Source of the DNA: Pomacea canaliculata
Taxonomy: Eukaryota; Mollusca; Gastropoda; Architaenioglossa; Ampullariidae
Assembly (NCBI RefSeq): GCF_003073045.1
Contig: NC_037590.1
Coordinates: 12,225,620-12,289,619, forward strand
Direction: 5' to 3'
Length of the DNA: 64,000 nt
The notes beneath the pieces are model-generated. The model was not told the DNA's origin. It saw only the letters and a list, made by a program, of their open reading frames with translations, and searched no databases. Position numbers and translations under genes: made by a program. Below are positions 136 to 60,911 of the stretch, piece by piece; the first letter of the stretch is position 1, and the number at the start of each line of letters is the position of its first letter.

Positions 136-237
136 TGATTTCAACAGTCAGTGTTGCCGAAACTGCCAAGCTGCTCCAGCGGGAACCAAATGTAAAAGAG
201 ACCCCGACAAACAGTGTATAAAAAGTGCAACGTGCGA
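136..237 (+). CDS. ADAM17-like: Gene A-left module 1, disintegrin second-half exon (102 nt)
   Basis: The acceptor is TTTCTAG and the donor GTATCC; entry and exit are both phase 2. It encodes a disintegrin segment beginning SDFNSQCCRNCQ, with the CC-x-x-C pattern of ADAM disintegrin domains, and ends at a Cys codon split from the next exon. It is clearly more diverged than its paralogs at 5319-5420, 58878-58979 and 63347-63448, but has exactly their length. The matching first-half disintegrin exon is outside the window. Confidence 0.7.
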
Positions 238-3200
238 GTATCCTTTTTTAATTTTCTATTTTTAGGGGTTTTTTTGTTGCTTCATAAGTGAAGTAGGAGC
301 AATGTTTGATTATTAAGGCCAACTGAGTTTTATTTAACAAGTAAATCATGAAAATAATTTTATTATGAAGTATCAACATTTTGTGTGTGACAGTTTACTT
401 TTTTTCCCTTTATCGAGGTACACGTCAGTCTATTGGTAAGGTCTTGCAGTTCTCTGTGAGTACCTGTTAACAGATGTATGCAATGTGTAGGCCTTTCACC
501 AATGGAAATGGAAGTTTGATGGTAGTGGAGGGTGTTACGCAGGATGTTGTGCGAGAAGATATTGAACAGCACCGGTGGAAGCGAGATCCTTGACGCACGC
601 CTACTGTAGTGCAAAAGTGACCTAGTAAGTGCTGTTCAACGTCATCTTGAAGAACATTCTGCAAGAAACTCTCCATGACCCTTTTAACGGTTGTAGACCT
701 ACAAATAGATCTCATGGTAAGTAGTAACAATGACATTACCAACAGACTAACACCAAAGGCATGTTTGGTGGTGACCAGACAGCAAAAAGATATAAAGAAA
801 AAATATATAATTAGTATGAAGATTTCACAGAAACCTGTTGTCAATTATAAATCTCTCTCCATATATAGCATTATGACAAAGAGCTTGGGTAAACTACTTT
901 CTTCTTTTAAGACCTTAACCGCTGATCAGTGGCTCTGGACTTTTTTGTCCTTATTCTGTCCCTGTAGCCATTGGCTCCGTTTGCCCAGACAAGTATGTAT
1001 AACCTAGGCATTAGTTGTGTTATGTATATACATATAGACATACAAAACAGTTGGGGATTAGTATCAATTCCACCTGGTCTAGATCTCTTAAATCACCTTT
1101 ACCTCAACAAACAGACGTCCTTAAGAACAGGATTTGCGCAGCATGTGCGACGGAATTATGAAGAGCCGTGTAGACAGAGGTCAAGAGGCAAACAAATTGA
1201 AGAGAATGACAAATAATCAATAAACAATGTCACGTCAATGATTCTGTAATTACAACCTGTGGTGTGCAAAGCAGAATCCGTGGGCAGCGATTTCGACTGT
1301 TTCTCTCATAATTTGATTATTAAGGAGCTAAAACATATTAAGTAGCTAAAACAGGTCACATCTAAAGCTTTTATGACCTTAACCTCTTAACCTCTAGTAA
1401 GATTTTACTCATTTTTCTTTGTCAATGATTTCGTACAAAAATATTATATGAAGGCGTTAAAGAAGCTATATCTAAAGTTGTCCTGCTTTGTTCGAAACGA
1501 TTCAATCACTCGTTCACAAGTCACCTGAATTAATGCCTGTGGGTTTGTCATATGACAAGCTGTAGTACAGTGGGGAGGATGCTAGACAGGAGTACGGCGT
1601 GGCCTTCATACGCAACAAGGTCGCCAGAGACGTCATCAGCTGTACACCCGTATCCAACAGGCTGATCTTCATACGTGTCTCGGCTCAGCCCCACAATAAC
1701 ACAATGGTCTAAGTATACGCTCTAACTTCCACGCATGGAATTAACGAAGTGAAGGAGTTTTACCAACAACAACACAAGGTTGTGAAGGGAGTTCCGATAA
1801 AGGACATCCTCGTACTCGGTGACTGGAATGCACAGGTCCGCCCAGACGCCTACCAGCAATAGGCAGGAAGGTGGGCAAATTTAGCGAAACGGACGATAGC
1901 GGTACCAGAGTCCTTGAATTTGAGCAGAGACAGAGACTCACCTTCGCCAACACCTTACACCACGACAAGAAAGCGATCACGGCACTCACCAGATGGATAG
2001 GTTCATACTCAAATCGACTATTTCCTGCTGTCGAGACTATTCAAATCCAGTATCAACAAAGTTAGACAAGTACGTGTCCAGGCGCTGATATAGGTATCGA
2101 CCATGACCCTGTTCTAAGGAACCTGAAGGTAAGAGGGAAGCAACTCTCAAACAACCCATCACCCTCCACCCCTGTGTTCGCTTTAGTCTTGAGAAACTGC
2201 AAGACTCAAACGTTGCAGAAGTTTTCAAGACCACAGTTAAAGGAAAATTTGCCGCGCGAAAACCTGTAGAATGTGATGTCGACACCCTCACTGGAAACAT
2301 AAAAGAAAATAGTCCAGGAGCTTTTGAAGAGAGATAAGAAAAGCCAGATCGTACCATCTGCGGAGACCAATAATTACCCCCTATCAACAGCAAACAGTGC
2401 TAGAACTACATAAGTGCCAGAACCATAAGCCTTATCAGCTATCCAAGCAAAGTCATGCTGAATATTGTACAGAACAGAATCAGCACCACTACAGAGGAAC
2501 TGCTAGCTGTAGAACAGGCTGGCTTCAAATAGAAGCTTACTTTCGTACCACAGTAGGCGTACATCAAGGATGTACTCTATCACCAGAGCTGTTTAATATC
2601 TTTTCGGAGAATATCATGCTCGAAACCCTCCACGACCATCATAGTTCCATTCCCATATGGAATGTATGACATAGGCATATGGAATGGAGAATGAAAGGAG
2701 CGAATCTATGGTCAGTGGCTGCGGCAAAGCAGAAATCTTTATGTAACCCTGAAATCTGCAACATATTGAAGACAAAAGAAGTTTCAGATACTTGGGAGTC
2801 ACCCTGTCCAAAGATGGCAGCTAATTATCTGCATCGTGATCTCAACAGCACCAGCAGTAGTAGCTAAGCTAGATAGGACTGCTGACTATCGTCCACAGTA
2901 GAGTGGTAGGTCCTGTCAGCTACCGCGTCTATGCATGTGCTCCCCACACAACAGACACCGGTCAAAGGACGACTGACTGATGTTGTATCATGGAAAGGGA
3001 TAGTCAGCTTTATATCAGTGTGATATGAGACCTCATATCGAGTCAAGCACAAGAAGAAAAGTAACGAACAAGCAACAAATAATGACAGCGAGCAGCAAAC
3101 ACCGAGGATAGAGAGTAGAAGTAAGGATGATGCTGACGATAAAAATTAGGGTGACTTATTATCGAATTAATAAAATAGATGGTCATTGTGACCTTTTATG

Positions 3201-6200
3201 TAGATTGATTTATGTGCATATGAAACGGATTATCCCAGGAGTCAGCAACTTGATCATTTTGATTTTTTTCTTGTGTCAGTCGTGTGTGTTTTAGAGGCAA
3301 GTGTATTTCCCCATGTGAAGTGCTTGAAGAAATCAACAGGAGGACCTACGAACCATGCCAGTGCCAAGATGGTGAGGCTGTAAAATTGTGCAAACAAGTG
3401 TCTTTTGCCACTCACTGATGCATTAGTATTGCGATCTAAATTATACTACTGTTCTATTAAATGTGATTATTTAGTATTTAATTTACACTACTGTCCCATT
3501 AAAAATAGAATTGTTTAGTATTTAATTTGTAACAGAGTGGTAGCGGATACATGATGTGAGTAGTAAACGTGCTACCACACACTCAAGCAGATGTAGGAAG
3601 AAAGCTGGCAGATGTACTTTGCTGAAGTGGTCTGAACGAAATACCACAGCTGCACTCCTCTACAGTAGGTTACAGGGTGGAGTCGTGGGCGGAAGCTGTC
3701 TTTCCTTTGTTCTGTAGTGTCGCTACTGATCATGTCTCCAGCACGTCTCGTGTCAGCTCCGCCTTTATGTACACCTCGCAGGGCTAAACTTCTCGTGATT
3801 CTCATGTAGGTCCACTTTAGTCAGCACCTTTAATTGTAGTCAATCCTCACAGAGCACACTTGCTGGTGCTGCATTGCATCTTCTGCCTATAGTAACTATA
3901 ATTCACCGCAGGGTAATCGCCAACTACTCTTTACATTTTTCTTTGCGATGTTAGGAAGGAATGAGTTAGCTAGAAAATAGCAATTTTCAAATCAGTTTTA
4001 TAAGACTGCCTAAAGATTGCCAAGTGAATAGTCTGTCAGTATAGTACAGGTATATGAAAGCACGTTGTAAAAGTATTCCCAGGGGCTCTTGGAATGATAC
4101 TAAGATCTCCGATATTTACCAAATGGATTTAATGAATAATGACAGTTCACAATAAAACTGTATCAAACGAAAGTGACATAACGTAGCACGAATAACAGTA
4201 AAATATAAATCGTAACAACCCGCTAATAAATCCTTGAATATAAATCCTATGACGTTCTCCGATGATGGAATTTTACCCTGAAAGGGTTTTAATATTAGCA
4301 GATAACAATATTTTTTTATGGGCAAGTTGTTGATAGGAGTCAAGATTGTAATTTGGTAGGTCATAAGAATTTAATTGATACTAAGGCGACTGGTGCCGCA
4401 CTTCGCCAACAATTTTTTACTTATGTTGTCTGTCATTTCACACAGATATTAATGCCTGCAAATACTGCTGTAAGGAGGTCTTTGGCAACAAATGTATACC
4501 AACTGCAACGTCTCTTGGCTTTGGAGAACCCTGCTACAAAGGTTTATGCAATGAAGTGAGTGAAGGGTGTGAGGAGATTAAAATTCGTTTTACTTCTCTG
4601 GTGAAAAAGTGTACAATGTGTATAATGCTGAATGTTTGACCATGGATCAACATCGCAGAAGAAACAAATAGTATAGTGTTTAGTCTTACTCATGCTATCT
4701 AGACATCTGGATGTTCATCTAGGATACATAACTGAAAACTTGACTAAACTAGAGGTCGCGTGTAAAGGTCGCAACATATTGATAATTCTACTGGTGTAGT
4801 TTCCATTCTATCTGCAGCAAGGAGAGTGCGTGCCAAAGGAGGATGCTGCTTGCGGCAATGGTATCTTAGACAAAAACGAAGAATGCGACGTAGGAGAGAG
4901 CGTCGTGAAAAACCAAGATAAATGTTGTAGCAGAACTTGTCATCTCAGAGAATCTGCACAATGCAGGTAAACTAGTGTTTTGTGTCTCCACGTACTAACA
5001 TTTCGATCATATTAGATAATATTCCAGCTTACTTTAATTTCATTCCCATGCAAGCTGGTATTTCAGGAGTTTCTATAATTTTCATTGAGACCAGTACTTA
5101 AAACATCTACGCTGGTCACGCATCAGTTGCTGGTAGCACGTATCAATTAATGCGAAAGGTAAGAGAAGAAATGAGACGGTTGGGTTCAGTTATTCGCATA
5201 CCAGTGAACAGTGACATTAACCACTATGGCATGCAACCCTTGCGTCTTGTACCTTTTAAAAAAAGAACAATCAGTAACAGGGCATCTGAAGTACTCATTC
5301 TGTTCTGGGCGTTTACAGTGGTTTCAACAAACCGTGCTGTAAAGACTGCAAAATCGCACCAAAAGGAACTAATTGTGAATCTAACTTTGAACTTCCGTGT
5401 ATGGAAAGCGCAAAATGCGAGTATCCTTTTGTTGTTTAATCAACTATACATTTGATGATAACTAACGCCTCACCCTTCACCCTGTACCCGCAGATGTCTA
5501 TGTCATATTATAAGTCAAATATTAGTTTTCATGTATGATAATTTTTTATCTATTTGTCTGATTTCCTCTGCACATTGATTCTTACGACGAAGCAGTGGTG
5601 TGTTGTGAGCAAAACATATTTGCAGTTATTTCTGATCACATTTTCGTGTTTGACTTTTGCCTGCATACATTTCCTTGACGGTTGATGAGTGGTGTTTCCA
5701 CTGATTGTCCGTCTGCTGTGCCAAAAGAGAATGGAATAGCCTGTCGTGGAGAGTATGTCATGTCTTTTGTACCGCTTTTTGCATACATAATTCTTATTTT
5801 ATTATGAGGTTTTAAAAAATACATTAATATTTGTATTAAAGTTAATAGTGTGATTAGTGTTTAAAATTAACATTATAAATCTGAGAAATGTATAGAGATA
5901 GAAACCCACAGTACAGCATCATTGGCTTCAAAATGACATTTTATTGTCATAAAGGGATGACATGTCATGAGACTATTCAATAGAAGAGAGCTTGATACAA
6001 GTGACCGAGGTGCTATACGGTACCATGCTGTACACCAGAATAAAACTATTTTCAAAACTCTGCTGGCTTTGCTAAATCTGCCCTCTGTCGTTTGTACTGC
6101 TCAACTTTATCTTGGAGAACATTATGCAAGAAACCTTCCATGATTTTCTTTATTGGTTGTAGACATGTATCAAGTTAGTTTGCGCTTTGCAGTGCAACCG

Positions 6201-9200
6201 ATCTGGTGATAGTCACTAACAACAATCTTCTAGACCTCACTCACAGACTGACAAATGAGTTGCATTTTGGATGGAAATAGCAAGAACAAAGAGACATAAA
6301 CATTACACAATTGCACAGCAAATCAGACTTCTTTGTAGACTAAGAACAGTGGAGTTTGGTTGTATCACTTACTTGGGAGCTATGTCATCAAAGATGGCTG
6401 ATAAACTGCAAAAATCCAAATAGAATTGCAATAGTGACACCAGTAATGACCAGGCTTTGGCACATCATAAAGTTTCTTCGAAACATTGGCTATTCTATTC
6501 TGCCCCGTGTGTGCGAAACATTAGGCAGAGAAATAAGGATTCAAGCATTGAGATAGTGAGAAATGTCACTCGCGAGAGCCACTAAAATCTCTAAAATAGT
6601 AATATTTGTAACAAAACGTAAGCAATAATAAAAGAAAAGAAGAAGAAGATGAATGTAATACACCCAAAATTCGTTATTAGTGTTTTGTTTTTGTTATTTC
6701 AGAGGCCAGTGTATTAACGGCAGATGTATTACCACATACTGTAAGGAGCTGGGAGAAAAGGATAATCGGCACTACAGAGCCTGCATGTGTGATCATGACG
6801 GTGAGATCTTTATAGTGCCTAGAGAATTAATTTTATTAACACCAAGCTCGCCTACTGTACAAGAACATAAAGATACAATGATAATAATAGGCATCGGCAC
6901 ACACGCCGCTCTGCCGGTGGAATGTGGGCGATTGCACAAAAATCGCTTTGTTCAATTCAAAGTATTTCATGGACTATCAGGAAAAGAAATATTACTATTA
7001 AATCACAATAAATAGCAGATATTCGTCATGTGTTAAGAGTATGTCTTTGTTTTATGTTATTGGAATAATAATAGTATTTTGTGATGACAGTTGGTACTCG
7101 GCACGAAAATCGTCTAGCCGTGCGGTGGCAGTTGTCAGTGTGACGTGATCGCATTCGCAAACTTTCGCAATGTATATTGATGTGTACATATTGAAGTAAG
7201 TCAGCGAAGATTGGCGGAAATGCCTGTAAATTTTATTAATGAAATTCAACAGTTTTCAAGCACAATAAAAGGTGACGGAAAATATTTGTCAAGAAAATGA
7301 AAGTAAAAGTAGCACTCACTTTAATCAAAAGGGGTCGGGTTGACTGTATTTCACACACAAATTTTGCAGTTATTAACTTATTGTTTACTTGAGACTGAGC
7401 TTGTGTGTTTTATTTCTCTCATCACCATCAAGCAAAAGTTTGGGTTGACTAAGAAGTTTGAGTGTCCCCAGCAAGTATTAAATATTTACTCTTCATTTTT
7501 AACCACTACCTCCCACTCCTCTACAAGTAAACATAATAAACATAAAATTAACGTGTTTATATCAGTGTTTTGAATTTAAACCCACTCTTTCCAGTAGCTT
7601 AGAAATAACAGCTTTTGTAATTTTAATACCCCTAAATCATTTATTTTCCACCTAAAAAATTAATGATTTTGCAATATTTCAAGCTGCATATCTCACAAAA
7701 GTTACACTGCAAGTTTGTAGAAAAAATCAGAACTACAGTATATAGAACTTACTTTGAAAAAAGTGTAGCAGTGCAAAGTTAGACTGGAACAGAGAGGACT
7801 ATAGAAGTCGGAACGTTGTCATCATCAGGGAAGTGTCTGACAGCCAGCACCACCTGTCAAGGGTTATAGGTGTGGTAACATCGTCCTCGTCAGTCTAAGT
7901 GTCTGATTAGCCAGCACTCATTAGCCACTGGATCATCAAGTGGATAATACTGGCGGTACAAACAAAGGAGAGAATTCAAGGGGATGTATGTGTGTGTGTG
8001 TGGTCGGACACGAACTTGGCTTGAACGTAAGTGTGATCGTTTGCTATTCTGTTTGCGTTGGAACACAAGTCTGGGACGTTGTTATTACCAGTTGCGGTTC
8101 CCAATTGAGAGACTGTGGAATATGGAAGTTGAAACTTATGTGGAATAGTAGAATTAACTTTTATGTGTAGAGTTTGTATGACTTTAACGCGAGAGAAACT
8201 TAAGTAACTGATGTGTTATGCCATGACTATTGTTATTTATTAGCTGTTTCTGGTATGTTCTTAAAGTAAACTTTTTCTTGCCTCCACCTAACGATAATCA
8301 AAACTCCCGACAATATTGATTTGGGTTCATTTTTGTCACTAAGAGTTTCTCAACTTTTATGAATTTCACGTATCATGAAAAAAGTGACTTTGCATGTGGA
8401 TTTGACCATACTGCAGTAACAAGAAACATTTTGCCTCCAACTCAGGCAGAATTTTGGTTTGCGTGCGTAGACAACAGAGATAAGAGGCAATTTTTTAACT
8501 ACCAAGGGAACACTTTTTCAATACGTGGAAAGGCAGCGAACGAGGTAACCATGGATGGAAAGCTAAAATTATCAGTTTCCACAGATTTCAAAGACTGTAT
8601 GTAGAAGGACAAAAAGCACAGGGTATTGCTTTTATGGCTGAAGCTAGTTTAAAAGCACACGTCATAAAGAAAAAAATAAGAACGCGAACCACTATAAAGC
8701 TGAAACTTTCTTTATAAACTCTGATATAAAAATGGCTAATAAAATTGTGCCCCAGTTTCTTTCTTTCATTTATAAATATGTGATAATATTAGTGAAAAGG
8801 ACCTGTAGTTATAGCTGCATGCCATGAAAACGTCCTTAAATGATCCTCAGAAGGTACTTCCAGTGTGGTCAGTCCCGTGTGAGCCCTGCATATGAAATGG
8901 AGACTAGCATTGCAAAGAGTAAAGTAATACTCATTAACAATAGAAAAGCAGAGATCTTTATGAACGGGATACGTCAGGTACGGCTCGAAGAGGTAAGCAG
9001 TTTTAAGTACAGTGATACCTCGGTTCTCGAACATAATTCGTTCCGGGAGGACGGTCGAGAACCAAATTGTTCGAGAACCGAAGCAATGAAACTCATAGGA
9101 AATAATGGAAACTGGATTAATTCGTTCCAAGCCCCAGAAAATGCCTATTTACTGGCCTAGTTTGTATATAATATGTAGAAAAACATAAGTCTCAACAAGA

Positions 9201-11420
9201 AATAAGAAATAAAAGTGTATTTATTAAAACAAAAAAAAAAACCCAAAAAAAATGCACAGTACAGTACAGTAAATTGTGTTTCATTTACTGTACCTGTACC
9301 AAACTTTATGGCAGGAGGGAATGAATGTGGAGGGAGGAGGGAAGGGGGATGGTTATTGTTTTGAAGGGGAGACCTCTTCAATAAAAACAGAGGGTAACTA
9401 ACTGCTCTTCGGGTGTTTCTGTTCTCTGTATCTTTTGCTGAGGAGAATCAGAATCTTGCTCTGCAGTTGCTTGTCTGATTTCTTTACGGAAGAATTTGTC
9501 AATTGTTTGCTGTTTTTTTCTCCTTTGCAAAATTTTGCGGAAAGTGGACATAACATTGTCATTAAAAATGTTAACTGCTCTATTTGCTACCACTTTATCA
9601 GGGTGATGTTATTCAACAAAATTTGCGATTTCTGCCCATTTTTGCACACATTTCGTGACTCTCTCCACAAAAACGTGACTCTCTCTCTCTGCACTCACAC
9701 TGATGACGCAAGCAAGGCGCGCTGGGCCGAATGAACGCCATTCGGCTCAACTCGGCTCATCTCGGACGTTCGGATGTTCGAGTTCCAAATATTTGTTCGG
9801 ATTCCAAGACAAAATTTTCTCGAATTTCCTGGTCGAATACCGATTTGGTCGAAAGTCAAGGCGTTCGAGAACCGAGGTATCACTGTACTTGGGAGATACC
9901 TTCTCCAAAGACAGCAACCTGCCGAGAAGTATCTGCTTCATGATCGCGACAGTAGCAGAGGCGATGGCTAGGCTCGACAGGATCTGGCGAAGTCGTAATA
10001 TTAGGTTTACTACGAAGTATAGTCTATACAAAGCCCACGTAGAGCTGATACTGACTGACGGATATGAAAAGGAATCAATGATGCGAAAACGATAATCCAG
10101 GCATTCTTTAGGAGGCTGCTCCTGATCTCGTACAGAGAACATTTAAACCGATGACTTTATACGAAAGCCGTTTACCACACGCGTAGGACTTCAGGAATCC
10201 CTCCTTGCAACAGTGAAGCGAGGTAGGTTTGCCTGGTTTATCCACGGAGCTACATTATAAACCTCAGTGGGTTTGTCCATGTAGCTCGCAACGATACCTT
10301 GTCAGAGTCTGTCCTTTAATGTACAATGGAGGGTGTTTAGCGTGCGGTGGACAGGGCAAGAACGTGAACGAGGGGACTGGTCGTCCTGTGCAGGATCTGC
10401 TCGCTGTGGCCCAAAAGAGGAGGGCTTTGTCAGCTGCCGTGTATATCCAGACGCTCCCTCCAACGACTGGTACGAGTCAAGGGATGAAATACTGAGGACT
10501 GTAGGGAAAATGTTAGGAAACAATACAAAGCTCAGATGGCATTCCCCCATGTTACCTACATTAGTTAGTTAAGGTTAGTCTCGCGTATCGTGTTTCTCGG
10601 CCAGCTCATGCAGCACTCATTCTGTCTGTTACCAGCTTCTGCAGCCTGCAAGCGCTGCTGTCTGGAGGTCTTTGACAACAATACAAATGGTCCGTGTTTC
10701 CCTACAAACAAAACCCTTAGACCTGGACAACGCTGCTACAACGGTGAATGCAACGAAGTGAGTCGTGCAAAGTGATTTTGTGTTGATTAATGATATCAAT
10801 CTACGAAGATTGCCTTAAAAGACCGTGAGATCGGAATCATTTTTATGATTTTTTTGTCTGTTTTCAGGAAGGAGTGTGTATTCCATCGGAAGGCCTTTAT
10901 ACTGTCCGGCTTTTCAAGTTCTTCAACAATTTGGATTTTGACACTCTTGGTACACGCCAGATTTTCTTTTTCCAAAAAATGTGAAAAACCTTTTATTGAT
11001 ATTTTTTTGAAAATTACAGAAATTTTCTGTTCAGGTGTTAAATTCTAAGTTTACTGTAAGACTTATGAAAAGGAGTCATTAGACACTCAAATACTTATCC
11101 TGGTTACGACGCTTGTATGTTTTCTTTTTCTATAATTCTGTATGTAATTGTGAGCAATATTAATGTTTTTTTCGTGGTGTTTAAAAGTCTTAGCACATGG
11201 TTTATCCCATTTAATGTCACATTTATTTTCTGCACAATCATCTGTCCTTCGTGGCTTCAGTTTCTCCCTTGTTTGTATGTGGAGGGTGTAACTGGGCAGT
11301 GATCGATCTTATCGCCATTTTCTACGTGCCAGCCACGTGATTGATTCCACTGATGTTGTGATATTGTGTCAACGTCAGCTGACCTTATGCAGTGTACCAA
11401 ATGTCACTTATGTTGTAGTT

Positions 11421-11459
<39 letters not shown>

Positions 11460-13055
11460 TGCCCATGTGATTTACTAAATTGTGCTGTACTCTATTGTAA
11501 TTCCCACCTTTGCAATGGTTCCCTTCAAGTGTTTGCTGTATTCTGGATGCAGGCCAGTGAACTACTTGATGTTGTCTAAACATTTTGTTCCTTGGTCTGT
11601 TTAGTGTATCTATTTCTACTTTCTATCAGGGACTGATTGTTACACTTTGCCAGTCTAGTCCTGATATTTATTCGATCTGATAACATCGCCTCAATCTTCA
11701 TATTTTCTCTTAAGCCCGGAAGTCTTAGAACGGCTCAGTAACGTGGGTGTCCTGTTACAAACTTTTGCCATTAAAATATGATAACTGACATGGACCTGTA
11801 TTCTTTTCTGCAAGTTCGCAGACCGGTGTTTCTTAAAACCATACTGAAGTGTTCTTGTTTTTTTTTTAAACACAGATATGAATAGATACCTAAATAACAT
11901 ACTAACTCTGTAATTTGGAGCTCGTTACACACAGTCGTTGATGAGATATTTACCTGAAGAGTGCTCGTTTTACACCTGGAATCATTTACATGTGCCAAAT
12001 CTCACTCCTGCGCTGGACAGCGGTGTCACCTTAGTTTTTAGTTAAGCCACTCGATGTGGTTTTTGTTTGTGATACACTACAGAAGATTCAATCAGACCAA
12101 TTTCATTTTCATTCTCCAAAATAAAGCAATAGTTTTAGGGACACATATTTTCTAGAGCCTTTAATGCATTAAATTATAATTATAAAAGTATAAAATATTT
12201 TTAAATGTACTTTGAGACCCCAAAACATCTAAATTAAGCGACGAAGTGAAAATACTCTCTTTTGATTTTACTTCTGTTTCTGCGAGAGATGATTAGATGC
12301 TGGCAAAATGTTTAGGAGAGAGGCTGAAAAAATAAAAATAGAATTTTGTAAAACTCAAGCAGCTTTGAGTTGTCGATTGAGCAGTAGGAAAGAAGAAAAT
12401 GAAGAGTCAAAACAGGAAGAAAAAGCCTCTCCTGCCGCTGGCCACCAGTTGCTACGAACGTGTCAGACATTGTACACGTATATCTTTTTGTTGCTTTTTC
12501 TTTAACGAAAAAAAACTTTCCTTGCTATTATCGTCATAATGTTACCTTGGGACTAATTTAAATCAGTTTTATTTGTGAAGACGTAGACTGTATATTTTTA
12601 AATGATAGCTTACATAGCAGAACTTTAAGAAGCAAATATTTGTGTTGTCTTTTCAAAGTGGAGACCATGAAGACTAACCTCGTCATGACTGTCGTGTTTC
12701 TGACAGCACTGTTCTGGATCCCAATCAGCTGGTGCATTTCCTGCATGGTAAGTTCTGATCCTATAAACATTCCAGCTTGTCTCACATCCAACAAATATAA
12801 CAACATACTCGTATTTGCGTTTCTTAGGTTTAGTTTTTTCTTTCACTCTTTTTTTATACAGAAACCATCAGGCTTATTCTATTTTTCTTGACCTTTATAT
12901 ATAATTTTATTTTTATGCACATCACAACATTTTTTACATTATGGTGTGTTGTATGATCTTTTGCACAGGACAGGAAAAACAAGGCACGCAAAATACCACC
13001 CACTGAAAGAACTTCTTTGTCCGTGGAGCGCGAGTCTTATGAAATGGGAATGTGA
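136..13055 (+). CDS. ADAM17-like: Gene A-left: 3' part of an ADAM17-like gene with tandem disintegrin/cysteine-rich modules
   Basis: Eleven exons can be joined in phase: 136-237, 3295-3371, 4446-4555, 4818-4966, 5319-5420, 5690-5752, 6703-6800, 10645-10757, 10868-10949, 12659-12747, 12969-13055. They encode one partial and one full disintegrin plus cysteine-rich (membrane-proximal) module, a juxtamembrane helix, a transmembrane segment and a short tail. Order and cysteine spacing follow ADAM17 (TACE), a type I membrane sheddase, but canonical ADAM17 has one such module. Prodomain and protease exons would lie left of the window. All exons are open except the last, where a missing G and a TAG shorten the tail. 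No second start, transmembrane segment or protease exon separates the modules, which argues for one gene. Family assignment is by my reading of motifs, not by a search. Residue identity with ADAM17 is modest, so the copy is a diverged relative. Confidence 0.75.
363..720 (-). mobile_element. LINE reverse-transcriptase fragment in gene A intron
   Basis: Read on the minus strand, the segment encodes pieces resembling the RT core (TVGVRQG followed by a VLFNIF-type block and a downstream TNRELQDL-like stretch) in more than one frame. It is a degraded non-LTR retrotransposon fragment. The plus-strand fragment at 2530-2660 carries a related TTVGVHQGCTLSPELFNIF stretch, so the two belong to the same or a close family. 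Confidence 0.55.
1560..3060 (+). mobile_element. Degraded LINE (endonuclease plus reverse transcriptase pieces)
   Basis: In order on the plus strand: an endonuclease-like stretch (YGVAFIRNKVARDVISC, later ILVLGDWNAQV near 1815), a GADIGSDHD-like remnant near 2080, and an RT block (TTVGVHQGCTLSPELFNIF near 2550-2610). Many stops and frameshifts separate them, so it is inactive. It occupies the intron between the module 1 exons, where the 63-nt linker exon would be expected. Confidence 0.6.
3295..3371 (+). CDS. ADAM17-like: Gene A-left module 1, cysteine-rich exon a (77 nt)
   Basis: The acceptor is TTTTAG and the donor GGTGAGG; phases (2 in, 1 out) are those of the 98-nt paralogs. It encodes EGKCISPCEVLEEINRRTYE and then PCQCQDG, corresponding to the GKC...C...C-C part after the ADAM17 disintegrin domain. 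It is 21 nt shorter than the paralogs at 6703, 57777 and 61148. It joins in frame directly to exon 136-237, so the module is readable without the 63-nt linker exon, which I could not find here. Confidence 0.6.
4446..4555 (+). CDS. ADAM17-like: Gene A-left module 1, cysteine-rich exon b (110 nt)
   Basis: The acceptor is CACACAG and the donor GTGAGT. It encodes a segment starting DINACKYCCKEVFGNKC and ending GEPCYKGLCNE, the CC...C...C...C pattern of the ADAM17 membrane-proximal domain. It exits in phase 0, so it splices in frame either to the hybrid exon 262 nt downstream or, in principle, to the juxtamembrane exon at 10868. Confidence 0.7.
4818..4966 (+). CDS. ADAM17-like: Hybrid exon: cysteine-rich end fused to disintegrin start (149 nt)
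   Basis: The acceptor is ATCTGCAG and the donor GTAAAC. The first codons (QGECVPKED) match the head of the juxtamembrane exon at 10868 (EGVCIPSEG). The remainder (ACGNGILDKNEECDVGE, then CCSRTCHLRESAQC) is a textbook ADAM disintegrin start, CGNG-x-x-E-x-x-EECD. The exon therefore ends one cysteine-rich module and opens the next disintegrin domain. Its counterpart at 59333-59481 has the same length and phase. Confidence 0.8.
5319..5420 (+). CDS. ADAM17-like: Gene A-left module 2, disintegrin second-half exon (102 nt)
   Basis: The acceptor is GTTTACAG and the donor GTATCC. It completes a Ser codon with the preceding exon and encodes GFNKPCCKDCKIAPKGTNC followed by a PCMESAKC end. The CC-x-x-C spacing and the 102-nt length equal the other three copies in the window. 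Confidence 0.78.
5690..5752 (+). CDS. ADAM17-like: Gene A-left module 2, linker exon (63 nt)
   Basis: The exon lies between GATGAG and the donor GTATGT and encodes DGVSTDCPSAVPKENGIAC then RGE, which matches the stretch of ADAM17 with a C-P-P-x-G core after the disintegrin domain. Both ends are phase 2, so the exon can be skipped without loss of frame. The acceptor has a weak pyrimidine tract. Copies at 58543-58605 and 62817-62879 have identical length. Confidence 0.7.
6090..6580 (+). mobile_element. LINE RT fragment shared by both arms
   Basis: Fragments read LENIMQETFHDF and, further on, LVIVTNNNLLDLTHRLTNEL, the end of an RT block and the strand carrying the YADD-like site, with breaks between. 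The same fragment lies on the minus strand at about 62040-62470, next to the paralogous exons, so it was inserted before the module or arm duplication. Confidence 0.5.
6703..6800 (+). CDS. ADAM17-like: Gene A-left module 2, cysteine-rich exon a (98 nt)
   Basis: The acceptor is TTATTTCAG and the donor GTGAG. It encodes EGQCINGRCITTYCKELGEK and then a YRACMCDHD end, equivalent to the K-C-x-x-G-K-C...C...C-x-C stretch of ADAM17. Two other copies of exactly 98 nt occur at 57777-57874 and 61148-61245. Confidence 0.75.
9010..9885 (-). mobile_element. pogo/Tigger-like DNA transposon, internally deleted
   Basis: The element has perfect 23-bp terminal inverted repeats beginning CAGTGATACCTCGGTTCT and is flanked by TA dinucleotides (9008-9009 and 9886-9887), the target duplication of Tc1/mariner-pogo elements. 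At 876 bp it is too short for a full transposase; only a C-terminal remnant is left on the minus strand. It sits inside a LINE, splitting its KY-LG codons. Confidence 0.85.
9378..9593 (-). pseudogene. pogo transposase C-terminal remnant with a PIP-box-like motif
   Basis: The open stretch contains RKILQRRKKQQTIDKFFRKE. C-terminal tails of Tigger/pogo transposases often have a basic stretch followed by a Q-x-x-[ILM]-x-x-F-F peptide, and QQTIDKFF fits that PCNA-binding consensus. There is no DDE catalytic core in the element, so this is a relic. The start codon shown is only the first Met of the open stretch. Confidence 0.6.
10229..10495 (+). other. Unassigned conserved open stretch in the A gene intron
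   Basis: A cysteine-containing open frame (STELHYKPQWVCPCSSQRY, then a YNGGC-ACGGQ stretch) is kept in the right arm at 54740-55030 on the minus strand, where a length difference of 9 nt keeps the frame. It lies just upstream of the cysteine-rich exon b. A second frame reads GDWSSCAGSARCG, vaguely like a thrombospondin type 1 core, but that frame is stopped in the right arm. I do not know its function and it may be non-coding. Confidence 0.3.
10645..10757 (+). CDS. ADAM17-like: Gene A-left module 2, cysteine-rich exon b (113 nt)
   Basis: The acceptor is CTTCTGCAG and the donor GTGAGT. It encodes ACKRCCLEVFDNNTNGPCF and ends PGQRCYNGECNE, the ADAM17 membrane-proximal pattern in which CKVCC and the later PC...C pairs form the cystine core. 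The right-arm copy 54478-54590 has the same length and only a few replacements (for example a Leu for Arg and an Asp for Asn near the end). Confidence 0.8.
10868..10949 (+). CDS. ADAM17-like: Gene A-left juxtamembrane (CANDIS-like) exon (82 nt)
   Basis: The acceptor is TTTTCAG and the donor GTACAC. It encodes EGVCIPSEGLYTVRLFKFFN followed by NLDFDTL. This matches the ADAM17 stretch GKCEK...RFWDF...L...N-TFG, the membrane-proximal amphipathic segment known to take part in substrate and membrane contact. The last ectodomain cysteine precedes it. Confidence 0.75.
11424..11456. repeat. (GT)n microsatellite
   Basis: About 16 GT units in the intron before the transmembrane exon. The right arm has a shorter (CA)n tract at about 54011-54026 at the same position on the opposite strand. 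Confidence 0.9.
12659..12747 (+). CDS. ADAM17-like: Gene A-left transmembrane exon (89 nt)
   Basis: The acceptor is TTTCAAAG and the donor GTAAGT. It encodes VETMKTNLVMTVVFLTALFW then IPISWCISCM, one hydrophobic helix of about 21 residues. The V-F-x-x-x-x-FWIP core matches the ADAM17 transmembrane helix, which has FWIP at the equivalent place. Exit is phase 0 into the tail exon. Confidence 0.85.
12969..13055 (+). CDS. ADAM17-like: Gene A-left cytoplasmic tail exon, truncated by a frame break
   Basis: The acceptor is TTTTGCACAG. It encodes DRKNKARKIPPTERTSLSVE and reaches a TGA after MGM. The right copy has four Gs where this copy has three (near 13046); with the longer run the frame would continue into the 7-residue repeat seen in A-right, although a TAG near 13078 would still interrupt it. 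The tail is therefore either short by mutation or mis-assembled. Confidence 0.7.
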   Translation, partial: DRKNKARKIPPTERTSLSVERESYEMGM

Positions 13056-14995: not shown

Positions 14996-15541
14996 GTTTG
15001 TTCTTTGAACTTTTGATTTTACTTCAGTACGTCGTTCTACACAAAGTGATTGCGATGGAAAATAGAAAATTACAAGTAGAAGAAAGTAAGTTGTGTGATT
15101 TGAAATACACACTAGTTGTCAAGTTATAACTTCACTGACACAAACACAGTTATTATTACAATCTAAGTCATTTTAATTAATGCTTTGATTTAAAATCTCT
15201 GGCCTAGGGTTCATGTCGCTGACCTCACTATTTCGAATAAATACACGGTTCAGTTGAAACAGATCTAAGTTTTACATCTTATCGCTATTGTTTGGATATC
15301 GTTTGTTTGTCCATGTTAGAAAGACCAAAAATGTTATGTTTACTGGTCACTCAAGAAGTTGCATTAAAACGTTCAAAAGGAGAGTAAACAACTGTAAATA
15401 ATGAAGTGATGTTAAGTGTTATAAAGGGTAGGATGGAGCAGACAATTGTTTGATTCTATGCCTGCTCCTGTTACTACTCGCACACATAGAGGAGGGAATT
15501 TCAGTAAACTTCTGCTTTGATGAAATTGATTTTTAAAACAG

Positions 15542-15677
15542 ATAATGTACACAAAAAGCTGTTTCACTACGAGACCTTGAAGAAGTCGGATATTTCTCTG
15601 CACGTCCGCCACCATCGGGATGTTGACACTGGACACGTAACGGCCAGAACTTACGTCACGTTCTTCACACTAGGAAT
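15542..15677 (+). CDS. ADAM17-like: Gene B-left prodomain exon 2 (136 nt)
   Basis: The acceptor is AAAACAG and the donor GTGAGA. It encodes NVHKKLFHYETLKKSDISLH then RHHRDVD and RTYVTFFTLG. The YETLKKSDI / THV-LLTFSAL-like layout matches the ADAM17 prodomain start. It is intact and has the same length as 38586-38721. Confidence 0.7.
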
Positions 15678-18741: not shown

Positions 18742-18851
18742 GTTTAAATGACATTATTTTCTGCACTTTCGTATCTATCAGCAGTTCCTTTATGGGTCTT
18801 TAAAATCCTCTGTTGTAGATGATGCCAAAGAGTTGTCTGGGGTCATATTTT

Positions 18852-26591: not shown

Positions 26592-26691
26592 NNNNNNNNN
26601 NNNNNNNNNNNNNNNNNNNNNNNNNNNNNNNNNNNNNNNNNNNNNNNNNNNNNNNNNNNNNNNNNNNNNNNNNNNNNNNNNNNNNNNNNNN
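26592..26691. other. Assembly gap of 100 N
   Basis: Exactly 100 unspecified bases separate two contigs. The left arm is in one contig and the right arm in the other, so the orientation of one arm relative to the other and the size of the spacer are not given by continuous sequence. Confidence 1.
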
Positions 26692-52309: not shown

Positions 52310-52522
52310 TTACGGTTGTGCGTACGGATCGACTGGAAATCCTGCAGGGTCGATTGAAGATTCTTCAGGCTCGATGGAAGATTCTGCTAAAGCGTCTGAA
52401 GATCCTGCCGGATTCACATAAGATTCTGCCGGATTCACATTCCCCATTTCATAAGACTCGCGCTCCATGGATGAAGAAGTTCTTTCAGTGGGTGGTATTT
52501 TGCGTGCCTTGTTTTTCCTGTC
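52310..52522 (-). CDS. ADAM17-like: Gene A-right cytoplasmic tail exon with 7-residue repeats (213 nt)
   Basis: It starts DRKNKARKIPPTERTSSSME and then has five degenerate 7-residue units: ESYVNPA, GSSDALA, ESSIEPE, ESSIDPA and GFPVDPY, before AQP and TAA. At the DNA level these are 21-nt units. The left arm has only three equivalents. The tail is acidic and Ser/Pro-rich and unlike the Thr735-type region of mammalian ADAM17. Confidence 0.75.
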   Translation of the reverse strand, partial: DRKNKARKIPPTERTSSSMERESYEMGNVNPAESYVNPAGSSDALAESSIEPEESSIDPAGFPVDPYAQP

Positions 52523-55500
52523 CTGTGCAAAAGATCATACAACACAATGAGTCCAAATTGACAAGATATAGAATAACGTGAGCGTATTAAAATACACACC
52601 ATAATGTCAGAAATGTTCTGGTGTGCATAAAAATAAATATATATATATATACGTCGAGAAAAATAGAATAAGGCTGAAGGTTTCTGTATAAAAAAGACAG
52701 TGAAAGAAAAACTAAGCCTAAGAAACTCAACTACGAGTATGTCGTTATATTTGTTGGATGTGAGACAAGCTGGAATGTTTATAGGATCAGAACTTACTAT
52801 GCAGGAAATGCAGCAGCTGATTGGGATCCAGAACAGTGCTGTCAGAAACACGACAGTCATGACGAGGTTAGTCTTCATGGTCTCCGCTTTGAAAAAACAA
52901 CAAAATTATTTGCTTCTTAAAGTTTCAATCCACGATTAATTTTAAATTAAAAAGTTCTGCTATGTTTTTTTTTTTTTGTTAAAAAAAAGCAATAAAAAGA
53001 TATGCGTGTACAATGCCTGACACGTTCATAGCAACTGGTGGCCAGCGACAGGAGAGGCTTTTTGTTCCTGTTTTGACTCTTCATTTCTTCTTTCCTACTG
53101 CTCAATGGACAACTCAAAGCTACCTGAGTTTTAAAAAATTCTCTTTTTATTTTTTCAGCCTCTCTCCTAAACATTTTGTCAGGCATCTAATCGTCTTTCG
53201 CAAAAACAAAGGTAAAATAAAAGGCGAGTATTTTCACTTCGTCGCATAATTTAGATGTTTTGGGGTCTCAAGGTCCATTTAAAAATATTTTATACTTTTA
53301 AAACTATAATTTAATGCATTAAAGGCTATACAAAAACCTCCGTTGCTCGAAAACTTTTGCTTTATTGTGGAGAATAAAAATGAAATTGAATCTTCTTCAC
53401 AAACAAAAACCACATCGAGTGACTTAACTAAAAACTAACGTGACACCGCTGTCCAGCGCTGGAGTGAGATTTGGAACCTGGAAACGATTCCAGATGTAAA
53501 ACGAGCACTCTTCAGATAAATATCTCATCAACGGCTGTGTGTAAGGAGCTCCAAATTACAGAGTTCGTATGTTATTTGGGTATCTATTCATATCTGTTTT
53601 TTTTTAAAACAGGAACACTTCAGTATGGTCTTTAAGACACACCTGTCTGCGAACAAGCAGAAAAGAATACAGGTCCATGTCAGTTATCATATTTTAATGG
53701 CAAAAGTTTGTAACAGGACACCCACGTTACTGAGCCGTTCTAAGACTTCTGGGCTTAAGAGAAAATATGAAGATTGAGGCGATGTTATCAGATGTAATAA
53801 ATATCAGGACTAGACTTGCAAAGTGTAACATTCAGTCCCTGATAGAAAGTAGAAATAGATACACTAAACAGACAGAGGAACAAAATGTTCAGACAACATC
53901 AAGTAGTTCACTAGCCCGCATCCAGAATACAGCAAACACTTGAAGGGAACCATTGCAAAGGTGAGAATTACAATAGAGTACAGCACAATTTAGTAAATCG
54001 CAAGGGCAATTCACACACACACACACACTCAAGAACTACAAGATAAGTGACATTTGGTACACTGCATAAGGTCAGCAACATCAGTGGAATCAATCACGTG
54101 TCTGGCACGTAGAAATGGCGAGGATATCGATCACACTGATCAGTTACACTCTCCACACTCAAACAAGGGAGAATCTGAAGCCACGAAGGACAGAGGATTG
54201 TGCAGAAAATAAATGAGACATTAAATGGGATCAACCCATGTGCTAAGAAAATCTGGCCTGTACCAAGAGTGTCAAAATCCAAATTGTTGAAGAACTTGAA
54301 AAGCCGGACAGTAAAAAGGCCTTCCGATGGAATACACAGTCCTTCCTGAAAACAAACGAAAAATCATAAAAATGATTCCGATATCAAGCTCTTTTAAGAC
54401 AATGTTCGTAGATTGAAATAATTAATCAACACAAAATCACTTGACACTTTAACATATAGTCTTTTTTCACGACTCACTTCATCGCATTCACCGTTGTAGC
54501 AAAGTTGTCCAGGTCTAAGTGTTTTGTTTGTAGGGAAACACGGACCATTTGTATCGTTGTCAAAGACCTCCAGACAGCAGCGCTTGCAGGCTGCAGAAGC
54601 TGGTAACAGACAGAATGAGTGCTGCATGAGCTGGCCGAGAAACACGATACGCGAGACTAACCTTAGCTAACTAATGGAGGTAACATGGGGGAATGCCATC
54701 TGTGCTTTGCATTGTTTCCTAACATTTTCCCTACAGTCCTCAGTCTTTCATCCCTTGACTCGTACCAGTCGTAGGAGGAAGCGTCTGGATATACACGGCA
54801 GCTGACAAAGCCCTCCACTTACGCGTATTTTGGGCCACAGCGAGCAGATCCTGCACAGGACGACCAGTCCCCTCGTTCACGTTCTTGCCCTGGCCACCGC
54901 ACGCTGAACACCCTCCATTGTACATTAAAGGACAGACTCTGACAAGGTATCGTTGCGAGCTACATGGACAAACCCACTGAGGTTTATAATGTAGCTCCGT
55001 GGATAACCAGACCAGCCTACCTCGCTTCACTGTTCAAGCCAAGTTCTTGTCCGACCACACACACATAAACATCCCCTTGAATTCTCTCCTTTGTTTGTAC
55101 CGCCAGGATTATCCACTTGAAGATCCAGTGGCTAATCAGTGCTGGATAATCAGACACTTCAGACTGATGAGAACGATGTTACAACACCTATAACCCTTGA
55201 CAGGTGGGGCTCACTGTGCAGACACTTCCCTGATGATGACAAGGTTACGACTTCTAATGTCCTCGCTGTTCCACTCTTGCTTTCCCCTCCTACACTTTTT
55301 TCAAAGTAAGTTCTATATACTGTTGTTCTAATGTTTTCTACAAACTTGCAGTGTAACTTTTGTGTGACATGCAGCTTGAAATATTGAAAAATCATAATTT
55401 TTTTTTAGGTGGAAAAATGAAAAAGATTTAGGGGTATTAAACTTACAAAAGCTGGAATTTGTAATCTACTGGACACTGATATAAAACACGTGTATCTGTT

Positions 55501-58500
55501 AATTTTATGTTAATTATGTTTACTTGTAGTGGAGGGGGAGGCAGTGGTTAAAAATGAAGAATAAATATTTAATACTTGCTGGGGACACTCAAACTTCTTA
55601 GTCAACCCAAGCATTTGCTTGATGGTGATGAGAGAAATAAAACACACAAGCTCAGTCTCAAGTAAAAAATAAGTTAATAACCCAAAATTTGTGTGTGAAA
55701 TACAGTCAACCCGACCCCTTTTGATTAAAGTGAGTGCTACTTTTACTTTCATTATCTCAATAAATTTTGGAAAAATGTAAATGTACAAAACAAAAAAATG
55801 CCCATAGCTTAGGTACCACATATAAAAACTGTTAACTATGTGACCCTTCAGGTTTTATAAATGGACACTGGGGATCTGATCCTGATCCATGACTGGCAGA
55901 AATGTACCAAAATGTACCAAAATAAATCATTTTTGAAATAAGTATTCGTCAAATTAGTGTTAAAATATTTACACATAAATATACATTGGTCAACCGCCAG
56001 CTAGACGATTTTCGTGCTGAGTACCAATCATCCTCACAAAATACGTATTATTATTCCATTAACAAAAACACTACAGCAAGCAGGATTTCGTCCTGGACGA
56101 TCCTACTCCGAACACATCTTCATTCTGCGACAGATTCTGGAGCAGAGCAACGAGTGGAACACACCGCTGTACATCAATTTCATTGACCTGGAGAAGGCTT
56201 TTGACAGCACTCACCGAGAGTCTTTATGGAAGATCCTGAGGCATTATGGATTCCCTGCAAAACTTGTTCAGGTCATTGCAATGCTGTACAGAAATTTCAA
56301 ATCCCAGGTTGTCTGTGACACGGAGCTCACAGACCCTTTCAGCGTCAGTACTGGGGTGAAGCAGGGCTGCATTCTGTTGCCGTTCCTCTTCATCCTGACT
56401 GACCATGGACTGGATCATGAAGACTCCCACCGACAGTGAGAAGAGAGGGATCAGATGGACCATGACTATGACAGCAACAACAACGGTAGAAGACTTGGAC
56501 TTTGCTGATGACATTGCCCTGTTGTCGCATCGCCACCCAGACATGCAAGAAAAAACAAAGGCCTTCTCAGAAACAGCTGGAAACCTTGGCTTGAAGGTCA
56601 GTGCAAGGAAAACGAAAAGTATGAGAGTGAACGACAGAGTCCAAGACAGCATCAAACTAAATGGAGAAGAGATTGAGGAAGTTGACAGTTTCACCTATCT
56701 TGGGTCCAAAATGTCAAACACCGGGGATGCGGAGGTGGAGATTCGAGCCCGACTGGCGAAAGCCAGCCAGGCCTTCGCCTCACTCAGGAGCACATGGAAG
56801 GCAACAAACATCAGTAAGAAGATCAAGCTGAGAATCTTGCAGTCAACTGTGATCAGCACCCTCCTTTACGGATCCGAATCATGGAAGATGACCAAATCCC
56901 TCTGTAAGAGACTTGACGTCTTCCAAAACAGATGCCCCAGGCGCCTACTTAGCATCTTTTGGCCAAATAAGATCACCAACGAAGAACTCCACCGAAGAGC
57001 TGAAACCGAGTTCATCACCACGCAGTTTCAACGAAGGCGTTGGCGATGGATTGGACATGTGCTCCGCCAGCAGACAGCAGACCTCTTCAGAGTCGCCCTA
57101 CGATGGACTCCAGACGGCCGAAGAAAACGAGGCCACCCAAAGGAAACTTGGAGAAGAACAGTGGAAAGGGAGATGAAAGGGCTGGACATGGGTCATCTGG
57201 AGTGGGTTTCAGCCGATCGACATCAGTAGCGGACTATGGTCGAGGCCTTATGTGCAACCTGATGCACGAAGAGGACAAGAACATAAAACAAAGACATACT
57301 CTTAACACATGACGAAACTCTGCTATTTCTTGTGATTTAATAGTAATATTTCTTTTCCTGATAGTCCATGAAATACTTTGAATTAAAAAAAAACGATTTT
57401 TGTGCAATCGCCCACATTCCACCGGGAGAACGCGTCCATGATGATGATGATTGATGATTGATGATTGATGATGACAATGATTGATTGATGATTTATGATT
57501 GATGATTCATTTATGATTGATTTATAGATTGATTTAAGATTGATGATTGATGATGATGATGGATGGATGGACGGACGGACGGATGGATTGATGACGGACG
57601 GACGGACGGACGGACGGATTGATGATGAACGGATGGACGGATGGATTGATGATGATGATTGATGATGATGATGATGATTCTTGTAGAGTACATTTCCAGG
57701 CCATTATGGATCAGGTGATGCCAAGACACGAGCTTGGTGTAATAAATTAATTCTCTAGACACTTCAAAGATCTCACCGTCATGATCACACATGCAGGCTC
57801 TGTAGCGCCGATTATCCTTCTCTCCCAGCTCCTTACAGTATGTGGTAATACATCTGCCGTTAATACACTGGCCTCTGAAATAACAAAAACCAAACACTTT
57901 TCCTAATAACGAATTCTGTGTGTATTTACATTTCATCTTCTCTTCTTTACTGTTATTTATGCTTAGGTTTTATTACAAATATTACTATTTTTGTTTGTAG
58001 TTTGCTTGTTTCTTATTTTATCCCACTGGAGTTTCAGTGGCTCTCGAAAGTTACATTTCTCACCATCTCAAGGAATCCTTATTTCTCTGCCTGATGTGTT
58101 GCACTCACGGTGCACAATGGAATAGCCATTACTGGTGTCACTATTACAATTCTACAAAAAATTTTGCAGTTTATCTGCCATCTTTGATGACAGTACAAAC
58201 GACAGAGGGCTTCTTTAGCAAAGCCAACAGAGTTTTGAAAAGAGGTTTACTGTGGTGTACTGCATGGTGCTGCATAGCACCTCGGTCACTTGTATCAAGC
58301 CCTCTTCTATTAAATAGTCTCATGACATGTCATCCCTTTATGACAATAAAATGTCATTTTGAAGCCAATGACGCTGTACTTTCGGTTTCTATCTCTATAC
58401 ATTTCACATATTTATAATCTTAATTTCAAACACTATCACATTTTTATGAAATATAATACAAAGATTAATGTATTTTTTTAAAAAAGCTCATAATAAAATA

Positions 58501-60911
58501 AGAATTATGTATGCAAAAAGCGGTACAAAAGACATGACATACTCTCCATGGCAGGTTATTCCATTCTCTTTTGGCACAGCAGACGGACAGTCAGTGGAAA
58601 CACCACTCATCAACCGTCAAGGAACAACATGCAGGCAAAAATCAAACACAGACGAAAATGCAATCAGAAATAACTGCAAATATGTTTTGCTCACAACACA
58701 CCACTGCTTCCTCGTAAGGATCAATGTGCAGAGGAAATCAGACAAATAAATAAAAATTATCACACATGAAAACTAATATTTGACTTATAATATGACATAG
58801 ACATTTGCGTGTACAGGGTGAAGGGAGAGGCGTTAGTTATCATCAAATGTTTAGTTGATTAAACAACAAAAGGATACTCGCATCTTGCGATTTCCATACA
58901 CGGTTGGTCAAAGTTATATTCACAAACAGTTCCTTGTGGCACGATTTTGCAGTCTTTACAGCACGGTTTGTTGAAATCACTGTAATCGCCCAGAAGAGAA
59001 TGATTACTTCAGATGCCCTGTTACTGATTGTTCTTTTTTTAAAAGGTACAAGACGCAAGGGTTGCATGTAACAGTGGTTCACGTCACTGTTCACCCGCAT
59101 TACAATAACTGAACCCAACCGTCTCATTTCTTATATTACCTTTCATATTAATTGGTACGTGCTACCAGCAACTGATGTGTGACCAGCGTAGTTTTTTCAT
59201 TACTGGTCGAAATGAGATAGCATCTCCTGAAATTCCAGCATGGATGGGAATGAAATTAAAGTAAGCTGGAATAATATCTAAAAATTATGATCGAAATGTT
59301 AGCACGTGGAGATACTTAAAACACTAGTTTACCTGCATTGTGCAGATTCTCTGAGATGACAAGTACTGTTACAGCATTTATCTTGGTTTTTTAAGCTTTC
59401 CTCTGCAGCGTCGCATTCCTCGTTTTCGTCTAAGACGCCATTGCCGCAAGGAACATCCTCCTCTGGCACGCACTTTTCTTCCTGCAGATAGAATGGAAAC
59501 TACACCAGTAGAATCGCGAATATGTTGCGGCCTTTACACGCGACCTTAAGTTTAGAAAAGTTTTCAGGCTTACGTAGCCTTGATTGACATGCAGAATTAT
59601 ATATAAATATGTCATCAGTCCGTCTAAAAATATAAAAAAGTTACATAATTTGTTTTTACCATTAAATCTTAACACTGTCTTAACCAGTGACTCACTTCAT
59701 TGCATACACCTTTGTAGCAGCGTTCTCGAAAGCCAAGAGGCGTTTTTCTTGGCAAACATTCGCCGTAAGTCTTGTTGCCAAATTCCTCCTGACAGCAGCG
59801 TTTGCAGGCATCGATCACTGTAATAAACAACATAATCAGTTCTGAGTAAAGTTACAGCCAGCACAAGGAGGGAAAAATTGTTGGCGAAGACTGAAAGTGC
59901 GACACCTGTCGCCTTAGTATCAATTAAATTCTGATGTCCTACTGAATTACAATCTTGACTCATATCGAAAACTTGCCCACAAAAAATATTATTATCTGCT
60001 AATATTAAAACCCTTTAAGTATAAAAATTTTGTCAGCTGAGCACGTCATTGTATGTATATTCAAGGATTTATTAGTGGGTTGTTACGATAGCAAAATTTT
60101 ACTTCTACTCGTGCCAGGCTATGTCACTTTTGTTTGATATAGTTTGATTGTGAACTGTCATTATTCATATAATCCGCTTGGTATATATCAGAGATTCTAT
60201 TATCATTCCAAGAGCTCCTGGGAATATTTATACAACATGCTTTTATATATCTGTACCATATTGACAGACTATTCACTGAACAGACATCAGACGTCTATGA
60301 TATTTTGTCTCTTCTGCGACTTGTATCCATGGTCCTAACATTGAGCCTTATGCACATTACACACTTTTTCATCTACCAATCGTGCTTAGTCACTGTATTT
60401 TCTGCTACATGTTCAGACTCAAAGAACAGTGCGTGTACAGGACGTCGACTGCACTCTCAATGAAAATAGTATTTGTTCTACCTGTTGGTCAATGGATTTT
60501 CTCAAATACTTCGTAATAACGCATACTTCTTCTGTTACAAAACTGCAGATTTTAAACCCTTAGTGGTTGTTATCATTATTGTATTTTTCTGTTTTTGTAA
60601 TGCACTGGGAGACTCTCTTGATGGTTGGGAGAGGCAATTGATCATGATGATGATGATGATGATGATGATGATTGCGATGACGATGACGACGACGATGACG
60701 ACGACGATTGACGTTGACGATTGATGTTAGTGATGGTGATGATGGTGATGACGATTGCGATGACGACGACGACGATTGACGACGATTGACGTTGTTGATG
60801 ATGATGATGATTGATGATGATGATTTATGGTGATTGATTGATGATGACGATTGATGATGATGATGGTGGTGATGATGGTGATGATGGTGATGATCGAGAT
60901 GGTGATGATGA

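Follow-up and report, generated by a model that had tools for sequence, protein, structure and literature searches.

ADAM17 occupies a central place among sheddases; substrate access and membrane distance are thought to be set by its non-catalytic domains, and the CxxC motif of its MPD is a disulfide switch. ADAM17/TACE proteins (human 8snl, 8snm and 9o58; Patella P0014; insect and mite sequences) carry one disintegrin-MPD module, whereas the snail genes considered here, in a 64-kb stretch of Pomacea canaliculata DNA (the window) and in its relatives, are read as carrying two to four, with a link exon not matched in any of the 145 other proteins examined. Both groups have the disintegrin domain, the CxxCC MPD, the stalk helix, the FWIPxS transmembrane segment and the same number of cysteines per module, and the prodomain and protease folds of ADAM17/TACE are like those of the P. 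canaliculata protein P0039. We consider it likely, judging from sequence, that two paralogous Pomacea ADAM17-like genes, a lineage-restricted variant with a multi-module ectodomain, lie in the window with their 3' parts.

In the open-access literature we found no account of a tandem-module ADAM17, no paper pairing Pomacea with ADAM17 and, among the matches listed, no use of the phrase 'two disintegrin domains'. The searched parts of PMC6129957 and PMC13336756 do not contain 'disintegrin', and those of PMC11417965 and PMC13336756 do not contain 'ADAM'.

Exon structure of two ADAM17-like genes

The window comprises two inverted arms (~4.0-26.3 kb and ~32.2-60.3 kb) on either side of an assembly gap, with their genes tail to tail. 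Pfam domains and matches to human ADAM17 in the PDB support the assignment of both genes as ADAM17-like: Disintegrin (PF00200) scores 50.5 and 41.7 bits in the two arms (cut-off 35.1; the left arm as its uncorrected exon model), ADAM17_MPD (PF16698) scores 28.9 and 36.7 bits (cut-off 26.2) with two stretches per arm, and the best PDB matches are human ADAM17 chains, including stalk and transmembrane segment. The right-arm protein aligns to 8snm_B through residue 364, covering the stalk helix and transmembrane segment, and the MPD CxxC motif appears as ACKRCC or ACKYCC in all four window modules. The protease exons of both genes lie outside the window, and HExxHxxGxxH, a motif that an intron could split, is absent from its every frame. 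A Toxin_29 match (17.7 and 17.4 bits against a cut-off of 25) fell below threshold and was rejected as a chance cysteine pattern.

Read inward, either arm has the exon order dis2-small-mpd1-mpd2-[link]-dis2-small-mpd1-mpd2-end-TM-tail (Table 1), which departs from the usual ADAM17 layout of a single disintegrin-MPD unit. All 24 modelled exons are preceded by an AG acceptor, all 22 internal donors are GT, exon phases agree in both arms (2-2, 2-2, 2-1, 1-0, 0-2 and onward), and the joined frame is free of stops over 382 residues on the left and 430 on the right, each followed by a stop codon, in agreement with a preliminary description of this DNA that had called the junctions in phase. That description also had the modules follow each other with no intervening protease, transmembrane or terminal exon, and neither the HMM scan nor the splice model finds one in either arm; stalk, transmembrane and tail exons form one set per arm, 3' of the final module. 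The second, complete set of exons that it described in each arm holds, but the first module is cut by the window edge, with its first disintegrin half exon outside. Judged by sequence, the part of the ectodomain from protease to membrane consists of consecutive disintegrin-MPD modules of ~175 residues each, and the proposal of at least two such modules in one gene stands, the link exon joining them.

The initial left-arm exon model was dropped when the relative P0039 revealed a missing exon and an upstream acceptor: the acceptor of the MPD exon in module 1, first placed at 3295, was corrected to 3280, and the small exon at 930-992, lacking from the earlier exon list, was recovered, being detected only with P0039 and not by the HMM. 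The alternative start of the second-module MPD exon 2, 9 nt upstream, matches P. canaliculata models reading HDAS(A/V)ACKRCC. The tail exon measures 87 nt on the left versus 213 nt on the right.

Table 1. Exons modelled in the two genes, with the assembly gap between the arms (window coordinates)
Feature	Position	Strand	Basis
Left gene, module 1: second disintegrin half exon	136..237	+	69% to P0039 500-534
Left gene, module 1: small exon	930..992	+	52% over 23 residues (weak); AG/GT and phase fit
Left gene, module 1: MPD exon 1	3280..3371	+	relative P0039, splice signals
Left gene, module 1: MPD exon 2	4446..4555	+	HMM scan, splice signals
Left gene: link exon (MPD end of module 1, first disintegrin half of module 2)	4818..4966	+	HMM scan, splice signals
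Left gene, module 2: second disintegrin half exon	5319..5420	+	HMM scan, splice signals
Left gene, module 2: small exon	5690..5752	+	HMM scan, splice signals
Left gene, module 2: MPD exon 1	6703..6800	+	HMM scan, splice signals
Left gene, module 2: MPD exon 2 (start maybe 9 nt earlier)	10645..10757	+	HMM scan, splice signals
Left gene: end of last MPD, CANDIS-like stalk	10868..10949	+	right-arm copy aligns with human ADAM17 stalk
Left gene: transmembrane exon	12659..12747	+	splice signals
Left gene: cytoplasmic tail exon to stop	12969..13055	+	open frame
Assembly gap (100 N) between inverted arms	26592..26691	.	sequence
Right gene, middle-type module: second disintegrin half exon	63347..63448	-	HMM scan, splice signals
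Right gene, middle-type module: small exon	62817..62879	-	HMM scan, splice signals
Right gene, middle-type module: MPD exon 1	61148..61245	-	HMM scan, splice signals
Right gene, middle-type module: MPD exon 2	59696..59817	-	HMM scan, splice signals
Right gene: link exon	59333..59481	-	HMM scan, splice signals
Right gene, last module: second disintegrin half exon	58878..58979	-	HMM scan, splice signals
Right gene, last module: small exon	58543..58605	-	HMM scan, splice signals
Right gene, last module: MPD exon 1	57777..57874	-	HMM scan, splice signals
Right gene, last module: MPD exon 2 (start maybe 9 nt earlier)	54478..54590	-	HMM scan, splice signals
Right gene: end of last MPD, stalk	54264..54345	-	aligns with human ADAM17
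Right gene: transmembrane exon	52798..52886	-	aligns with human ADAM17
Right gene: cytoplasmic tail exon to stop	52310..52522	-	open frame

A six-frame scan of the 64 kb with a module HMM detected 17 module exons in strict order, 8 on the forward strand (131 to 10757) and 9 on the reverse (63453 to 54478); the rest of the window gave no hit, ruling out further modules there. As controls, 20 Markov shuffles gave 1 hit in total and the reversed window gave none. Ten module sequences went into the HMM, including two from this window; to those two the scan is therefore not blind, and its independent part consists of the remaining window module exons and the relatives.

The link exon (149 nt in both arms) spans the module boundary, coding for the final part of one MPD and the opening of the following disintegrin domain; its motif, Q/E-x-x-C-V-P...CGNG...EECD, comprises the last MPD cysteine motif, 6-7 residues and the first disintegrin half. 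A reading in which the first module closes one gene and the second opens another would suit the general fact that ADAM17-like genes are clustered in tandem here. That reading is nevertheless very unlikely, to the point that we give it almost no weight, because the boundary falls inside a single exon with AG/GT ends and an open frame; nor does any transmembrane, tail, signal or protease exon lie between the modules. The junction occurs in 7 of the 38 proteins of our first search, all 7 from Pomacea (P0001-P0005, P0007, P0030), and also in P0039, and link sequences differ between loci.

The terminal exon, which opens with EGxCIPSEG, starts at the same phase-0 boundary as the link exon, with which it shares 16-17 of its first 27 bases. 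An internal module is a five-exon cassette, running from the link to MPD exon 2 (149+102+63+98+113 nt = 525 nt for the second module on the left) with phase 0 at both ends, so that its gain, loss or skipping keeps the frame. The usual mRNA might then skip the cassette and encode an ordinary one-module ADAM17, the extra module belonging to a minor isoform: the end of the first-module MPD exon 2 and the start of the terminal exon are both in phase 0, and P. canaliculata models vary in the inner exons they include. We regard this as quite improbable, since no model among the matches listed joins a first-type MPD straight to the terminal exon, and P0001 and P0002 retain the link.

Relatives in Pomacea and the number of modules

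Three protein searches yielded 156 distinct proteins, the third comprising the best 120 of 430 matches. The nearest relatives of the window are P. canaliculata proteins, the best match of the right arm being P0001 (83% over 93%). Eight of the ten entries named P. canaliculata (P0001-P0008, P0030, P0039) hold pieces of more than one module; P0006 and P0008 do not, their models skipping exons or running adjacent genes together. The Pomacea entries all derive from one assembly and several represent the same locus, so they are not independent copies; identical residues are shared by P0001 and P0003 (128), P0002 and P0005 (112), and P0002 and P0039 (98). Nine of the ten carry or overlap the consecutive models C0Q70_00618 to C0Q70_00627, one cluster, and in P0003, P0004 and P0008 the 3' end of a gene is run into the 5' end of its neighbour, making the database annotation of this cluster unreliable.

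Counting as a module at least 60 model columns, 145 of the 146 non-Pomacea proteins among the matches listed have one module, including those of nine named molluscs (Patella, Lottia, Gigantopelta, Haliotis, Biomphalaria, Physella, Mya, Mizuhopecten and Mactra). Apart from Pomacea, the matches listed include no caenogastropod by name. The earlier statement that ADAM17 orthologs carry one unit is thus borne out by all 145 other ADAM-type proteins among these matches. P0049 stands apart: this laminin-G protein carries a run of several short CGNG repeats that resemble disintegrin, of ~40 model columns each and without MPD or protease, a layout unrelated to that of the snail genes. The multi-module ADAM17 layout is apparently restricted to Pomacea in this sample, and a canonical one-module P. 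canaliculata ADAM17 does not occur among the best 120 of 430 matches.

Five of the Pomacea entries (P0001, P0002, P0003, P0004, P0039) have the link junction, module types, and stalk and transmembrane exons of the window genes; they differ in being other copies or from a related species, and in being fragmentary, with ends inside modules. P0039 has a signal-like N terminus, a prodomain, a protease with HELGHNWGSPHD, disintegrin 1, MPD 1, a link and disintegrin 2, and loses frame inside MPD 2 of its second module. P0002 continues from a partial MPD 1 through link, disintegrin 2, MPD 2 and stalk to the transmembrane segment, and P0001 has a partial MPD, link, module, link, module, stalk and transmembrane segment, both beginning inside an MPD exon. 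Combined, these models imply the layout protease-[module]n-stalk-TM, a composite of several models; none of them runs unbroken from protease via two complete modules to the membrane. Residues 1-128 of P0001 are identical to residues 146-273 of P0003, an overlap that gives three successive links and therefore four modules at one P. canaliculata locus.

The AlphaFold model of P0001 is of low quality as a whole (pLDDT 59.4, pTM 0.29) but has module segments of 70-86 in blocks; that of P0039 is better, with a mean pLDDT of 76.5 and a pTM of 0.61. Human ADAM17 complexes take the top Foldseek ranks for both. In the structure prediction that the preliminary description had suggested for joined modules, those of P0001 are not placed confidently relative to each other, and module packing in that model was discarded as too uncertain.

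Protein trees of the shared part resolve three module types, each one side of a branch, with strong support only for the protease-proximal type (the left first module and module 1 of P0039; support 96/95); the middle type (the right first module and module 1 of P0001) received 78/91 and the last type 57/91. The left first module resembles residues 461-626 of P0039, and the right first module is 90% identical to the middle module of P0001. On this typing the left gene, whose first module is protease-proximal, probably has two modules, and the right gene, whose first module belongs to the middle type, probably has at least three. The earlier suggestion of more modules outside the window would accordingly hold for the right gene only. 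In the right arm a disintegrin/small-exon stretch is repeated (58192-59085 and 62465-63554; 89-91% DNA identity, introns included) and the MPD exons of the two modules diverge more; we read the repeat as a putative recent duplication or gene conversion of part of a module.

Such arrays could have originated when a deletion or an unequal exchange, whether among ADAM17-like genes in tandem or inside a single gene, joined one unit's last-MPD exon to the first disintegrin exon of its neighbour, with middle modules gained by later duplications. The phase-0 boundary and the xGxCxP start common to the link and terminal exons are compatible with a fusion of this kind. The stalk anchor (cf. the parts of PMC10148629 consulted) is present once, after the last module, so that extra modules separate the catalytic head from the anchor. 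The product would be a membrane sheddase whose catalytic head is held further from the membrane, whose single stalk helix keeps membrane contact, and whose extra disintegrin and MPD surfaces might select or hold substrates or partners. Longer reach together with additional contact surfaces would be the most likely consequence of the extra modules, and the longer stalk or several binding surfaces predicted from the sequence earlier remain plausible. A natural series of two, three and four modules with one catalytic head and one stalk would make reach versus exosite number testable in shedding, and the locus offers a clear case of exon-cassette duplication within a membrane protease.

Divergence, decay and the inverted arms

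All six complete snail modules contain 25 cysteines, as do those of Patella, Ceratitis and Tropilaelaps, and none of eight module pairs, which are not independent, differs at a cysteine (chance 2e-8 to 0.11, below 0.03 in seven). The dN/dS ratios, rough values without intervals, are 0.83 between the arms for module 2 plus stalk and transmembrane exons, 0.70 for module 2 alone, and 0.71 between the first and second right-arm modules; comparisons involving the left first module used the uncorrected exon model. With 65% of the left stretch alignable, the arms differ at 52 of 782 exon sites (6.65%) versus 421 of 5526 other aligned sites (7.62%). Exon divergence near the outside level and dN/dS of 0.70-0.83 point to little constraint. 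Kept cysteines combined with high dN/dS suggest that the fold is held while surfaces drift or diversify, a pattern that fits relaxed or positive selection alike. A broader and tentative reading, which we think unlikely as a whole, would make apple snail ADAM17 a copy-number-variable modular receptor-protease, with paralogs of two, three and four modules, fast evolution outside a fixed cysteine frame, and an array that, perhaps in defence or fertilisation, tunes reach or the choice of substrate.

The same ratios, and the nearly equal divergence of exon and non-exon sites, would also fit a heap of decaying ADAM17-like fragments, with tandem modules made by recombination and most copies yielding no working protein. 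This agrees with the damage seen, in both arms, in 5' pieces of the next gene, with the missing HExxHxxGxxH motif (subject to the intron caveat above), with the shorter left tail and with the lost frame in module 2 of P0039. It must be weighed against 24 of 24 open exons with intact splice signals, the unchanged cysteines, a junction kept in several different P. canaliculata copies, and an open signal exon in the right-arm copy of the next gene. Wholesale decay seems to us unlikely, if not negligibly so, and we prefer genes that encode a multi-module ectodomain; given the damaged neighbouring pieces and high exon divergence, some copies may be decaying.

The gap between the arms makes their adjacency uncertain, and they could be inverted paralogs or a mis-joined haplotype. 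Inverted homology near the centre is 81-82% (19691-21494 with 33402-35179; 25543-26273 with 32242-33027) and asymmetric about the gap, stopping near 26273 on the left and at 32242 on the right, which rules out a foldback read artefact. A heterozygosity of 1-2% is reported for P. canaliculata in the part of PMC6129957 consulted, and the divergence of the arms above this level favours paralogs rather than alleles. An assembly artefact, in which uncollapsed haplotypes were set head to head at the gap and the module repeats arose by misassembly, would account for a run of 100 Ns near the middle of inverted arms, but faces the 7.6% divergence of non-exon sites; this argument is tempered by a population diversity range reaching 0.058, quoted in the part of PMC11417965 consulted. 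Misassembly could not create the protein differences between modules within an arm (65% Ra/Rb, 44% La/Lb), links differ between loci, and we hold such an artefact to be highly improbable. Whether the arms are alleles or paralogs, the tandem modules within each stand.

Each arm also contains the 5' part of a further ADAM17-like gene (15007-20755 on the forward strand, 39276-34082 on the reverse), with signal, prodomain and early protease exons. The left copy, several of whose prodomain exons are identical to P0008, lacks an in-frame start in its signal exon, and the frame of one of its prodomain exons is broken; the right copy has an open signal exon and stops in a protease exon. A remnant of the protease motif, GTNWGAPHDPPG, lies at 29492 on the reverse strand. 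Long, impure GAT/GATG microsatellites occur in the right arm only (50988-51446, 57438-57678, 60639-61052). Reverse-transcriptase/endonuclease-like mobile-element remnants were recognised by eye from translations at 1600-2700 (forward) and 56000-57270 (reverse), the latter without a counterpart in the left-arm alignment.
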